Source: a virus
Direction: 5' to 3' (one strand)
Length of the DNA stretch: 27,105 nucleotides
IMG/VR virus record: IMGVR_UViG_3300022562_000741
Location: 1-27,105 of that record
Shown: positions 1,525 to 19,670 of the stretch, piece by piece
Numbering within the stretch: position 1 is the first letter of the stretch
How the letters are laid out: each line of letters opens with the position of its first letter
The notes under the pieces: generated by a model
Told to the model about the DNA's origin: nothing
The model's input: the letters and a program-made list of their open reading frames with translations, nothing else
Database searches by the model: none
Position numbers and translations under genes: made by a program

Positions 1525-4500
1525 ATGGCAAACACGGGCGGATCAGGACTCATTCGGGCGACTGGCCTGACGGACGACGACGTCCTGGTCGTCGTTAACG
1601 ACCCGGACGGTACGCCCGAGACGCAGGGCGCGACCGGTACGGTCCTCAAGACGTACCTCGACGGGCGGTACGCCCTCGACTCCGGTCTGTCGGCGCACAT
1701 CGCGGACGTCGCGAACCCGCATTCGGTCACGGCGAGTCAGGTCGGCCTCGGCCTGGTCGAGAACACGGCCCTCTCGACCTGGGCGGGCTCGGCGAACATC
1801 ACGACGGTCGGGGCGACTGCCGTCACGGCGCATCAGGCGGCCCTTTCGATCGCCGAGTCGCAGATCGTCGCAGACTTCGGGACATACCAGGCGGCCGGAT
1901 CATACCAGGCGGCCGACGCGACCCTGACCTCGATCGCGGCCCTCGGGACGGCGGCCGATCGAATGCTTTACACGACGGCGATCGACACCTGGGCCGAGGT
2001 CACGACGACGGCGTTCGGCCGTGGCGTCCTCTCCTGGGCCGATGCCGCGGCCGGTCGTACGGCCCTCGCCCTGGTCATCGGGACGAACGTGCAAGCGCAG
2101 TCGGCCGCCCTGTCGGCGATCGCGGGGCTCGCGACAACCGACTCGAATTTCATCGTCGGGAACGGGACGACCTGGGTCGCCGAGACGGGAGCGACGGCCA
2201 GGACGTCACTCGGGCTCGGGACTGCGAACAGTCCCCAGTTTACGGCCGTCAACATCGGGCACGCGTCCGACACGACTCTCGCCCGTGTCTCGGCCGGGAA
2301 CCTCACGATCGAGGGCAACCTGATCTATCGGGTCGGCGGCCAGGACGTCAGCGTTGCGGACGGCGGAACGGGCCTGTCGTCCTACACCGTCGGCGACATC
2401 TTGTACGCCTCGGCGACGACGACCCTCTCGGCCCTGCCCGCGGGGACGGCGACGTACGTCCTGACCTCGAACGGTCCAGGTGTCGCGCCGTCCTGGCAGG
2501 CGTCCGCGGGCGGGGCGTCTGCATTCGGCGACCTGACCGACGTCACGCTCACGACGCCGGGCACCGGGGCCCTCGTTTACAAGTCGGCCGGGGACTGGAT
2601 CAACCTCGCGCCGGGCTCGACGTCGCAAGTCCTGATCGGCGGAACGGCCCCGGCCTTCGGGGCGGTCAACCTGGCGACGATGGTCACCGGAAACCTCGGC
2701 GTCTCGAACCTCGACTCGGGCACGAACGCGTCGGCCTCGACCTTCTGGCGGGGCGACGGCACCTGGCAGACTCCGGGCGGCGGCGGGAATGTGAGCAACT
2801 CGGGGACTCCGGTCGACGGCCAGATCGCCGTATGGACCGGGGCGACGACGATCGAGGGGGATGCCGCCCTCACGTTCGACACGACGACCGACACCCTCAC
2901 GACGGGTAATGTCCTGCTCGCCGCGGGCGGGGCGTTGCAGACGTCGACGACGGCGACGAATACCCTTCTGATCCAGGCGTACGACACCGACGGGACGGCG
3001 TACACGACGTTCGTCACCCTGACGGCCGGGACGACCCCGACGATGGACCTCTCGTCGGCCGTCACGATCGGCGGGAACGCGATCCTCGACTCGACCTGGA
3101 CCGGGTCGACCTCGGTCACGACGCTCGGCACGATCGGAACGGGCACCTGGAACGCGACGACGATCGCAACGACGGTCGGCGGTACGGGCCTGACGTCGTA
3201 CACGCTCGGGGACATCCTGTACGCGTCCGCGGCGAACACGCTCGCGGCCCTCGCCGGTAACACGACGACGACGAAGCAATTCCTGTCGCAGACGGGAACA
3301 GGGGCCGTTTCTGCCGCCCCGGCCTGGGCGACGATCACGGCGGCGGACGTCTCGGATCTGGGCTCATGGACGGGCTCGACCTCGATCACGACGCTCGGGA
3401 CGATCGGAACGGGCACCTGGTCGGCAACGACGATCGGGCCGACGGTCGGCGGGACCGGGCTCACGACATACACGACCGGGGACATCCTGTACGCGTCGGC
3501 GGCGAACACCCTTTCGGCCCTGGCCGCGGGAACGGCGACGTACGTCCTGACCTCGAACGGCCCAGGCGTTGCGCCGTCCTGGCAGGCGGCGACAGGCGGA
3601 TCGGGTGCCCTTAATGACCTGACCGACGTCACGATCACCGGCCAGGCGACCGGCGACCTCATGTACGCCTCGTCGGCCTCGGCCTGGGTCAACCTGGGCG
3701 TCGGATCGAACGGCGACGTCCTGACCCTCTCGGGCGGCGTTCCGGCCTGGGTCACGCCGGGCGCAGGCGGGAATGTGAGCAACTCGGGGACTCCCTCGGA
3801 CGGTCAGGTCGCGGTCTGGACTGACTCGACGCACATCGAGGGCGACGCGGCGTTGACCTTCGACACGACGACCGACACCCTTTCGACGGGGAACGTCAGA
3901 CTCGCCGCAGGCGGGGCCCTGCAGACCGCCCAGGCCGCGACGAATACGCTTCTGATCCAGGCGTACGACGTCGACGGCGCGTCGTACACGACGTTCCTGA
4001 CGCTCACGGCGGGCAATACGCCGACGGCGGATCTGTCGACGGCCGTCACGATCGGCGGGAACGCGATCCTCGACTCGACCTGGACGGGCTCGACGTCGGT
4101 GACGACGCTCGGCACGATCGGAACCGGCACATGGAACGCGACGGCGATCGGCCCGACCGTCGGCGGAACCGGGCTCACGACGTACACTCTGGGCGACATC
4201 CTGTACGCGTCGGCCTCGAACACGCTCGCGGCCCTGGCGGGCAATACGACGGCCGTGAAACAGTTCCTCTCCCAGACCGGAACAGGTGCCGTTTCGGCGG
4301 CCCCGGCCTGGGCGACGCTGACGACCTCGGACGTCTCTGACCTGGGGTCATGGACCGGGTCGACCTCGATCACGACGCTCGGGACGATCGGAACCGGCAC
4401 CTGGAACGCGACGGCGATCGGGCCGACGGTCGGCGGGACGGGCCTGACCTCGTACACGACCGGCGACATCCTGTACGCCTCGGCATCGAATACCCTCTCG

Positions 4501-5700
4501 GCCCTGGCGGCAGGGACGTCGACGTTCGTGCTGACCTCGAACGGTCCAGGTGTCGCGCCGTCCTGGCAGGCCGCGTCGGGCGGGGCCTCGTCGCTGACCG
4601 AACTCTCTGACGTCACGCTCACGACGCCCGACACCGGGGCCCTGCTTTACAAGTCGGCCGGGGACTGGATCGACCTCGCGGCCGGATCAACGACGCAAGT
4701 CCTGATCGGCGGGGCGACCCCGTCCTGGGGCGCGGTCAACCTGGGGACGATGGTAACCTCGACCCTGGGCCCGACGAACGGCGGCACCGGGCTCGCGTCG
4801 TACACGACCGGCGACGTCATCTACGCCTCGGCCTCGAATACCCTGTCGGCACTCGCGGCGAACGCGACAGGGACGAATCAATTCCTGCGGTCGGTGTCGT
4901 CCGGGGCCCCGGCCTGGGCGCAGGTCGCGTACGCCGATCTGTCGGGCTCGGGCTCGACCTCGATCACGACGGTCGGCACGATCGGAACCGGCACCTGGTC
5001 GGCGACGACGATCGCGACGACGGTCGGCGGGACGGGCCTGACCTCGTACACGACGGGCGACCTGATCTATGCCTCGGCCTCGAACACGCTCGCGAAGCGG
5101 GCGATCGGAACGGGCGGCGATCTTCTGTACGTCTCGGGCGGCGTCCCGGCCTGGGGATCGACCTCGACGATCGGCCTCGCGACCCTGACCGGGACCGAGA
5201 CGCTGACCGGAAAGACGATCACCCTCTCGGGCACCCTGACGATCAACGGGCAGAAGATCAGTCTGCTCGCGGCCGACTCTCACATCGAACTCGACCCGAC
5301 GCTCACGACGACCGGCGATTACTCGTCGACGCATACGGTGTCGGGTACGGCAGGCGCAACGCTCGCAATCGGCGATCTGTGCTACCTGAACGCGTCCGGT
5401 CAATGGGTTCTCGCCGACGCCTCGGCCGAGTCGACGGCCGGGCCGGTTGAACTCGCGATCTGTCTCGCGTCGCTGACCGCGACTCAATCGGGCCTGTTCC
5501 TGAAGGCGGGATACGTCCGGGCGACCGCCCTCGGAACGGGTACGTCCGGGGCCGCGGCATACGTCTCGGAGACGTCCGGTGATGTGACGAGTACCAGGCC
5601 GTCGACCTCTGCGGCGATCGTCCGCAAGGTCGGCAACTGGCAGTCGGACGGGAATACGCTCCGCTTCAAGCCTTCCGAACTCTGGGTCGAAAACGCCTGA
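1525..5700 (+). CDS. Giant modular tail-fibre protein
   Basis: This 1391-residue protein is very rich in Thr, Ala, Gly and Ser and has almost no charged clusters. Residues 64-86 carry the phage fibre repeat NPHSVTASQVGLGLVENT. The body has seven copies of a GGTGLTSYTTGDILYASA-type unit. These are interleaved with TLGTIGTGTWNATTI, VLTSNGPGVAPSWQ and DVTLTTPGTGAL units, typical of tail-fibre shafts of many phages. A 984-nt (328-codon) block beginning at 2787 is repeated starting at 3771. The last 140 or so residues (GDLCYLNASGQWV ... LRFKPSELWVE) look like a separate capping or decoration-type domain. It is probably a trimeric fibre that binds the host surface; where the receptor-binding tip lies is not evident. 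The start at ATG 1525 directly follows the upstream stop. Confidence 0.85.
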   Translation: MANTGGSGLIRATGLTDDDVLVVVNDPDGTPETQGATGTVLKTYLDGRYALDSGLSAHIADVANPHSVTASQVGLGLVENTALSTWAGSANITTVGATAVTAHQAALSIAESQIVADFGTYQAAGSYQAADATLTSIAALGTAADRMLYTTAIDTWAEVTTTAFGRGVLSWADAAAGRTALALVIGTNVQAQSAALSAIAGLATTDSNFIVGNGTTWVAETGATARTSLGLGTANSPQFTAVNIGHASDTTLARVSAGNLTIEGNLIYRVGGQDVSVADGGTGLSSYTVGDILYASATTTLSALPAGTATYVLTSNGPGVAPSWQASAGGASAFGDLTDVTLTTPGTGALVYKSAGDWINLAPGSTSQVLIGGTAPAFGAVNLATMVTGNLGVSNLDSGTNASASTFWRGDGTWQTPGGGGNVSNSGTPVDGQIAVWTGATTIEGDAALTFDTTTDTLTTGNVLLAAGGALQTSTTATNTLLIQAYDTDGTAYTTFVTLTAGTTPTMDLSSAVTIGGNAILDSTWTGSTSVTTLGTIGTGTWNATTIATTVGGTGLTSYTLGDILYASAANTLAALAGNTTTTKQFLSQTGTGAVSAAPAWATITAADVSDLGSWTGSTSITTLGTIGTGTWSATTIGPTVGGTGLTTYTTGDILYASAANTLSALAAGTATYVLTSNGPGVAPSWQAATGGSGALNDLTDVTITGQATGDLMYASSASAWVNLGVGSNGDVLTLSGGVPAWVTPGAGGNVSNSGTPSDGQVAVWTDSTHIEGDAALTFDTTTDTLSTGNVRLAAGGALQTAQAATNTLLIQAYDVDGASYTTFLTLTAGNTPTADLSTAVTIGGNAILDSTWTGSTSVTTLGTIGTGTWNATAIGPTVGGTGLTTYTLGDILYASASNTLAALAGNTTAVKQFLSQTGTGAVSAAPAWATLTTSDVSDLGSWTGSTSITTLGTIGTGTWNATAIGPTVGGTGLTSYTTGDILYASASNTLSALAAGTSTFVLTSNGPGVAPSWQAASGGASSLTELSDVTLTTPDTGALLYKSAGDWIDLAAGSTTQVLIGGATPSWGAVNLGTMVTSTLGPTNGGTGLASYTTGDVIYASASNTLSALAANATGTNQFLRSVSSGAPAWAQVAYADLSGSGSTSITTVGTIGTGTWSATTIATTVGGTGLTSYTTGDLIYASASNTLAKRAIGTGGDLLYVSGGVPAWGSTSTIGLATLTGTETLTGKTITLSGTLTINGQKISLLAADSHIELDPTLTTTGDYSSTHTVSGTAGATLAIGDLCYLNASGQWVLADASAESTAGPVELAICLASLTATQSGLFLKAGYVRATALGTGTSGAAAYVSETSGDVTSTRPSTSAAIVRKVGNWQSDGNTLRFKPSELWVENA
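2787..4754 (+). repeat. Long in-frame internal repeat of the fibre gene (984-nt offset)
   Basis: Matching landmarks such as the GNVSNSGTP, EGDAALTFDTTTDTL, AVTIGGNAILDSTW and FLSQTGTGAVSAAP coding stretches recur 984 nt apart (first at 2787, again at 3771). The copies are diverged but clearly homologous. The end coordinate is approximate because shorter fibre units continue beyond it. Confidence 0.75.
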
Positions 5701-19118: not shown

Positions 19119-19173
19119 GGAAGGCCCAGGCCGGGGGATCGAACCCCGATCGCGCCGTGTGACGCCTGGGCGG
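19119..19173 (-). repeat. 55-bp direct repeat, tRNA-like minihelix (copy 1)
   Basis: It is identical over 55 bp to the copy at 19616-19670. Read on the minus strand it folds as an 8-bp acceptor-like stem (GCCCAGGC with GCCTGGGC) enclosing a T-arm with a 5-bp CGGGG/CCCCG stem and a 7-nt TTCGATC loop, the canonical TpsiC pattern. The 15 nt between the 5' strand and the T-arm are too short for D and anticodon arms. No CCA follows. It sits just after the stop of the 136-residue gene. Confidence 0.75.
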
Positions 19174-19180
19174 GCGAGGG

Positions 19181-19591
19181 TTACAGGTCGCCCAGGTAGC
19201 GGACGTCGGCCGACACGGGCTCGCCTCGGAGCCTGGCGGCCTGTCGCTCGCGGGCGGCCTCGTCGTCGTACAGGTCTTCGCCCGTCAGGAACTTCCCGGC
19301 GACGAGTTCCTGCCGTTCGGTGTAGAGGTATGCCCGGCCGCCCCAGGAGTCGAGGCGCGACCAGACGTCGACCAGGCGGAACCGGATCGGGCTCGCCTCG
19401 GGGTCGCCACCCTCGCGGCGAATCGCCTCGTCGATGTGGCGGCCCAGTTGACCGCGCAGGATCGAGGCCGCGGCGAGGGCATTGCGGCGGGGCACGCTCG
19501 ACCGCCAGTTGCAGAACGGGCAGGCGATCCGGCGCGAGCCGACGGTCGTGTCCGTCGCGATAAACCGGGTCGTGATTCGGTGATGTGTCAT
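19181..19591 (-). CDS. Hypothetical protein with CxxC knuckle, flanked by tRNA-like repeats
   Basis: This 136-residue protein starts MTHHRITTRFIATDTTVGSRR. CPFCNWRSS looks like half of a zinc site, with nearby His in GRHIDEAIRR. A helical middle part follows (NALAAASILRGQLG), and the C-terminus (ADVRYLGDL) is well formed. Family not recognised. The gene is bracketed by two identical 55-bp repeats, so it could be gained or lost by recombination between them. Confidence 0.55.
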   Translation of the reverse strand: MTHHRITTRFIATDTTVGSRRIACPFCNWRSSVPRRNALAAASILRGQLGRHIDEAIRREGGDPEASPIRFRLVDVWSRLDSWGGRAYLYTERQELVAGKFLTGEDLYDDEAARERQAARLRGEPVSADVRYLGDL

Positions 19592-19593
19592 CG

Positions 19594-19601
19594 GTGGAGT
19601 C
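19594..19601 (-). promoter_or_regulatory. GACTCCAC start-proximal element
   Basis: It lies 2 nt before ATG 19591, in the same context (CCGACTCCACCGATG apart from one flank base) as the element before the winged-helix gene at 10268. Confidence 0.5.
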
Positions 19602-19615
19602 GGTCAGGTGGAACA

Positions 19616-19670
19616 GGAAGGCCCAGGCCGGGGGATCGAACCCCGATCGCGCCGTGTGACGCCTGGGCGG
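19616..19670 (-). repeat. 55-bp direct repeat, tRNA-like minihelix (copy 2)
   Basis: Second identical copy, 497 bp from the first. It sits 8 nt after the stop of the first leftward gene. Identity stops abruptly at both ends, so the 55-bp unit is self-contained and includes both strands of the acceptor-like stem. Confidence 0.75.

Follow-up and report, generated by a model that had tools for sequence, protein, structure and literature searches.

tRNA upper-half minihelices between genes of dsDNA phages and their possible role in the punctuation of transcripts

Introduction

Mitochondria punctuate their polycistronic transcripts with tRNAs. The tRNA-like mascRNA and menRNA are excised by tRNA-maturation enzymes from longer transcripts (MALAT1 and NEAT1, respectively), and M3 RNA of phage phi80 as well as the C4 antisense RNA of P1 and P7 are phage RNAs that have been reported as non-tRNA substrates of RNase P. 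Both tRNA-like RNAs and tRNA punctuation are already known ideas.

mascRNA and menRNA are named in PMC9777231. RNase P binds the stack of T-stem-loop and acceptor stem, uses a distance of 12 bp to the cut site, pairs with substrate positions 73-75 and cuts the AT1 acceptor/T-arm model substrates (PMC11143913). RNase Z, in turn, clamps the elbow and is blocked by CCA (PMC4919913). The elements described below have the build of such a tRNA upper half and lie between the genes of phages.

Results

The window, that is, the whole 27,105-bp stretch of DNA analysed, is an IMG/VR virus record, possibly a fragment of a genome. According to Pfam and PHROG scans, its plus strand encodes terminase, portal and capsid proteins, while exonuclease, Gp2.5-like SSB and replication genes are found on the minus strand. 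A large plus-strand ORF of 1391 aa (1525-5700) is built of diverged internal repeats of ~174-300 nt. The ORFs flanking the elements under study (Table 1) exhibit a third-position GC of 0.80-0.88, which is the coding signature of the whole genome. Gene A has no match in Pfam or PHROG, gene B has no Pfam match and a single weak PHROG match, and no protein relatives of the two flanking genes were detected in the viral contigs searched.

Table 1. Coordinates of the repeat copies, their parts and the neighbouring genes in the window.
Feature	Position	Strand	Basis and remarks
Copy 1 of 55-bp repeat (tRNA upper-half minihelix)	19119..19173	-	identical to copy 2; fold; descriptor match 19125-19170, 12/12 Watson-Crick
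Copy 1 acceptor-like 5' strand GCCCAGGC, G-1 to position 7	19164..19171	-	sequence, fold
Copy 1 linker, 15 nt, replaces D and anticodon arms; GG and weak 3-bp hairpin	19149..19163	-	sequence, fold
Copy 1 T-arm CGGGG-TTCGATC-CCCCG	19132..19148	-	sequence, fold
Copy 1 acceptor-like 3' strand GCCTGGGC, position 66 to C73	19124..19131	-	sequence, fold
Copy 2 of 55-bp repeat (tRNA upper-half minihelix)	19616..19670	-	identical to copy 1; descriptor match 19622-19667
Copy 2 acceptor-like 5' strand	19661..19668	-	as copy 1
Copy 2 linker	19646..19660	-	as copy 1
Copy 2 T-arm	19629..19645	-	as copy 1
Copy 2 acceptor-like 3' strand	19621..19628	-	as copy 1
Gene A, 129 aa	19679..20068	-	ORF upstream of copy 2; third-position GC 0.88
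Gene B, 136 aa	19181..19591	-	ORF between copies; third-position GC 0.88
Gene C, 64 aa	18878..19072	-	downstream of copy 1; NikA-like ribbon-helix-helix; Pfam PF21983 E 1.3e-8

The repeat comparison bore out the two identical 55-bp copies reported in the initial annotation; they are 497 bp apart, and an exact repeat of this length is far beyond chance. On the minus strand both read GCCCAGGC - GTCACACGGCGCGAT (15 nt) - CGGGG - TTCGATC - CCCCG - GCCTGGGC - CTTCC. In agreement with the architecture proposed at the outset, a T-arm stacked on an acceptor-like stem with about 15 nt in place of the D and anticodon arms, RNAfold returned the stacked structure at -27.2 kcal/mol. The energy as such does not stand out (z -1.55; 15 of 200 shuffles are as stable), whereas a T-loop on a split stack with 12/12 Watson-Crick pairs did not occur in 400 block-shuffles of the window. 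Both copies have all 12 of these pairs and a 13th, the outermost G:C, which can be read as G-1:C73. The location between the stop of one leftward gene and the start of the next was likewise reproduced: the helices begin 9 and 10 nt after the stop codons of genes B and A, and end 51 and 29 nt before the start codons that follow. In the 3' direction the sequence continues C73-C-T-T, so CCA is not encoded. ARAGORN detected no tRNA or tmRNA gene in the window, and the copies matched no Rfam family, RF00005 (tRNA) included, up to E 5. Just downstream of copy 2 on the minus strand, positions 19592-19620 resemble a part of gene A, both reading FLFHLT, which suggests a decayed local duplication.

A scan with a loose pattern followed by a structural filter uncovered the same build in two further loci (L013 and L096); the matches of this first pattern were mostly chance and tRNAs, yet they included both loci. 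BLAST onward from these reached annotated phages of Streptomyces (TG1, Shawty, Dagobah), Mycobacterium (MyraDee, Adzzy, HINdeR, Konstantine) and Gordonia (ObLaDi, VanLee, MakoManhole), as well as Corynebacterium phage StAB, cyanophage NATL2A-133 and many uncultured viruses. The elements of Adzzy and StAB are imperfect, with an 8-nt loop or a bulge, and at the BLAST match in halovirus HVTV-1 the descriptor finds no minihelix. MakoManhole (L402) carries three near-identical minihelices (1651-1691, 2984-3024 and 3102-3142), which parallels the pair of identical copies in the window. Some 200 records of Streptococcus thermophilus phages also contain a short segment of the MyraDee element, possibly in the T-arms of tRNA-derived att sites.

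Membership in the class was defined by a stack of 12 bp that is interrupted in its 5' strand only and is closed by a 7-nt T-loop TTCRANY. A generic descriptor (12-bp stack, T-loop TTCRANH, linker of 4-34 nt) gave 67 distinct matches in 3.1 Mb of loci as compared to 0.67 per block-shuffled pass, a count that reflects specificity rather than frequency, since the loci were partly chosen for such elements, and that includes some truncated or clustered tRNAs (L118). In the latter contig a dense tRNA-like array extends over ~2700-5700, with at least one member devoid of most of the tRNA middle. The final tally is 138 distinct elements in which 12 or 13 pairs form, including a few that are tRNA or noise; more than 100 distinct minihelices of the same build are thus present across phage contigs. 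In bacteria the commonest family (R1) is rare, with a match in 3 of 296 Actinomycetota genomes, and the PHROG context of four matches in bacterial genomes gave no clear prophage assignment; a short-linker pattern had no match in 294 Planctomycetota genomes. No Rfam 15 family matches the minihelices, the StAB element giving a sub-threshold match to tRNA-Sec. A search of the open PMC literature, which leaves subscription papers aside, found no description of the class, and the class itself appears to be undescribed.

The pairing could be assessed with the pattern GGWWGGTCGNAGNNNNGGTTCGACTCC, which leaves 8 of the 12 pairs unspecified. In viral contigs at least seven of the eight free pairs form in all 43 matches, and all eight in 39. 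An alignment of 42 elements, some of which were picked with the descriptor so that it leans to pairing, has 99.0% of its cells paired, 158 double changes vs 42.7 in shuffles, and a covariation score of 0.874 vs 0.169 shuffled; because the elements are related by descent, the figures here and in the next paragraph overstate the number of events. Despite the common descent, the stems of the class differ widely. In the pattern-only set (n=39), pairs 9, 10, 11 and 12 form in 39, 39, 39 and 38 elements, whereas a 13th pair is seen in 12 elements and a 14th in 2; the helix therefore stops at 12 bp. Hence the resemblance to tRNA-His noted earlier, which is seen in the G-1:C73 of the window copies, does not extend to the commonest family in general.

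A second pattern, whose linker is shorter than a tRNA would allow, matched 106 stretches, and all free inner pairs form in 72 of 99 rows, a few of which are nested readings of one site. A GG reminiscent of the D-loop is present in 99/99 linkers vs 76 (sd 3.4) in shuffled ones, the linkers having been selected without regard to their sequence. Following the 12-bp helices, position 73 is A (57/80) and position 74 is C (66/80), position 75 is mostly G or T, not C, and most elements of the class lack CCA. Selection plainly acts on the RNA of the minihelix class.

Placement was read from annotated phages, since a crude ORF caller put many elements inside spurious GC-rich ORFs. In the 48.5 kb of VanLee read, all 16 descriptor matches are on the strand of the leftward genes. 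The leftward operon has 17 gaps of 30 nt or more, 15 of which hold such an element, or 16 with the one at 38533-38575 added by a covariance model. In ObLaDi, 11/11 elements (nine leftward, two rightward) are on the coding strand, the majority 6-10 nt after a stop. In the remaining annotated phages the elements are found on the coding strand, between genes or overlapping a gene end by a few nucleotides; in the exceptional case of Shawty the element lies under a small annotated ORF of the same strand. In four loci (L207, L209, L202, L208) several elements precede a similar leader that contains CACCCA(A/G) and runs up to the next start codon. At 29752-31368 of VanLee (L305), the phage richest in minihelices, a Ro-like RNA-binding protein is encoded beside a tRNA-Arg gene.

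The window copies fit the structural class in their structure, linker GG (GTCACACGGCGCGAT), strand, and stop and start spacing, the 9-10 nt past the stop codon being in agreement with the other members. They share the 13-bp stack, the TTCGATC loop and the C after C73 with two other loci (L327 and L365). They do not belong to the commonest sequence family: the R1 model (linker GGAUGGUCGNAG, 10 nt as opposed to 15 in the window) yields no window match at E <= 1, the exact window linker has no match elsewhere in viral contigs, and the nearest TerL relatives of the virus (L122 and L189) are without the element. The acceptor pattern of the window was also tried on genome contigs and discarded, none of its 36 matches being a perfect minihelix of the window type. 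The covariance test that had been suggested for the repeat applies to the class, where compensatory stem changes are strong; at the window locus the two copies are identical and the orthologue search returned none. Given the lack of an R1 match, the unique linker and the closest relatives without the element, the function in the window genome would follow by analogy.

At the locus upstream of the gp14 homologue in phiC31-related phages, tRNA-like sequences and minihelices stand in for one another. A tRNA-like sequence with an enlarged anticodon arm is found in phiC31, Lilbooboo, Samora, Euratis, Heather and Sebastisaurus; that of BT1 has a 9-nt loop, and that of the locus L302 a 4-bp arm and a 5-nt loop. 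Minihelices occupy the site in TG1, Shawty, L013 and L332, and neither tRNA-like nor minihelix was detected there in Dubu and phiSASD1. As far as the sequences tell, the locus retains the upper half of the tRNA, not the anticodon. The phiC31 sequence (L205, NC_001978, ~31424-31511), located just upstream of gp14, is unannotated and has normal D and T arms, and its Lilbooboo counterpart is annotated as tRNA-Gly.

Discussion

The sequence and predicted structure of the copies, together with the covariation, 12-bp limit, linker GG, A73/C74 bias and coding-strand intergenic placement of the class, lead us to propose that the minihelices are natural acceptor/T-arm substrates which let host RNase P, and perhaps RNase Z, cut polycistronic phage mRNA, a proposal with an even chance of being correct. 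Both copies would be transcribed within the leftward early mRNA, and each would fold as a stand-alone mimic of the tRNA upper half, with a T-loop and an uninterrupted acceptor/T stack of 12 bp (G-1:C73 makes it 13 bp in the window), while the GG of the linker could dock on the T-loop in the manner of G18-G19 of the D-loop. Host RNase P, measuring 12 bp from the T-loop, would make the 5' cut immediately behind the stop codon of the preceding gene. The 3' cut may be due to RNase Z, which matures precursors without CCA, or to some other 3' nuclease, and would give the following gene a well-defined leader, about 30-50 nt in length. The result would be a phage polycistronic mRNA punctuated by host tRNA-maturation enzymes. 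From transcription and folding in the cell to the enzymes, the cuts, the benefit and the likeness in action of the window copies to the class, these steps are what we infer.

The minihelices keep the features that tRNA-maturation enzymes read and drop those that translation reads, which makes recruitment of these enzymes the most economical reading. Such recruitment of RNase P or RNase Z had been suggested for the repeat in the initial annotation, and it is this suggestion that the covariation, the 12-bp end, the strand bias and the intergenic placement support best, the cuts themselves being putative. The interchange of minihelices and of tRNA-likes with abnormal anticodon arms at the phiC31 gp14 locus is also in its favour. 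On the other side, position 75 seldom offers the C that pairs with the GGU of RNase P, and the window copies stand apart from R1 and from the nearest relatives of their virus, as outlined above.

Alternatively, the released small RNA may itself be the product, a tRNA mimic or decoy that occupies a tRNA-directed defence or a host factor reading the tRNA upper half, such as TruB, the CCA-adding enzyme, EF-Tu or RNase P. T-loop, elbow GG, 12-bp stack and A73-C74, precisely the features that such factors recognise, are all retained, and some phages have no more than one or two copies; nevertheless, a decoy would not have to be placed at almost all gene borders of an operon and at a constant distance from the stop, as in VanLee and ObLaDi, so that this explanation is possible but doubtful. 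It is unlikely that the minihelix simply remains on the mRNA, 3'-terminal in the upstream one or within the leader of the downstream one, as a shield against exonucleases, similarly to viral 3' tRNA-like structures and with no RNase P cut necessary. The helix is stable and most elements lie at most about 10 nt past the stop codon, but a plain hairpin would do as well, and the T-loop, GG and 12-bp limit would go unexplained unless tRNA enzymes act. A transcription terminator or pause hairpin might be expected from G+C-rich inverted repeats behind stop codons; since the U-run is absent (CTTCC follows in the window, mostly ACG or ACT elsewhere) and terminators are not built as split helices with a conserved T-loop, this reading was rejected as extremely improbable.

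Phage att sites often carry tRNA T-arms. The initial annotation had also allowed for att-like or recombination repeats around a one-gene cassette, devoid of any role in RNA, and the window copies are indeed identical, flank one gene and adjoin a gene A-like sequence indicating that local duplication has occurred. For the class, however, this is disfavoured, because the stems change by compensation, the orientation follows the genes at whose borders the elements lie, and no integrase was found among the 20 window proteins scanned with Pfam (of a record that may be a fragment); we regard it as very improbable. Equally little credence is given to functionless tRNA genes which have lost their middle. 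The intermediates at the phiC31 gp14 locus and the truncated members of tRNA arrays such as that of L118 speak for such remnants, but remnants would not be expected to preserve all 12 pairs while the stems change, to have the GG in every linker and to end abruptly at 12 bp, nor to fill nearly all gaps of an operon.

Processing by tRNA-maturation enzymes being the preferred explanation, many dsDNA phages of different hosts may share a half-tRNA device for operon punctuation, with the 12-bp ruler as its conserved signal, a generalisation for and against which the balance is level. In any case, a widespread class of structured phage RNA that tRNA finders and Rfam overlooked has been exposed, and a part played by host RNase P and RNase Z in shaping viral mRNA becomes directly testable. 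Should the elements be cut, they would constitute very small natural RNase P substrates in many variants and could provide data on the way in which the enzyme takes the measure of a substrate.

As to described systems, the start-associated sequences (SAS/ESAS) of cluster K mycobacteriophages likewise recur in front of many genes, almost always in the same orientation and with no known function, but contain 17-bp imperfect inverted repeats adjoining the ribosome site or start codon (PMC3203893), whereas the window elements lie just after stops. No T-loop minihelix was found in the TM4 stretch scanned (22000-52797), and for both reasons identity with SAS/ESAS was rejected. The phi80 M3 and P1/P7 C4 RNAs, as described, differ from the minihelices in structure and role. 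mascRNA and menRNA are mammalian, about 60 nt long, equipped with additional stem-loops and without homology to the phage elements. Mitochondrial tRNA punctuation likewise places tRNA-shaped elements between the genes of one long transcript, on the coding strand, yet it uses working tRNAs, while the phage elements belong to phage operons and have no anticodon arm. Finally, the AT1 model substrate of RNase P (PMC11143913) is man-made and ends in CCA, whereas the phage elements are natural, mostly lack CCA and have a linker with GG; nevertheless, the two agree in their three component parts and in the 12 bp that separate the T-loop from the (for the phage elements, predicted) cut site.
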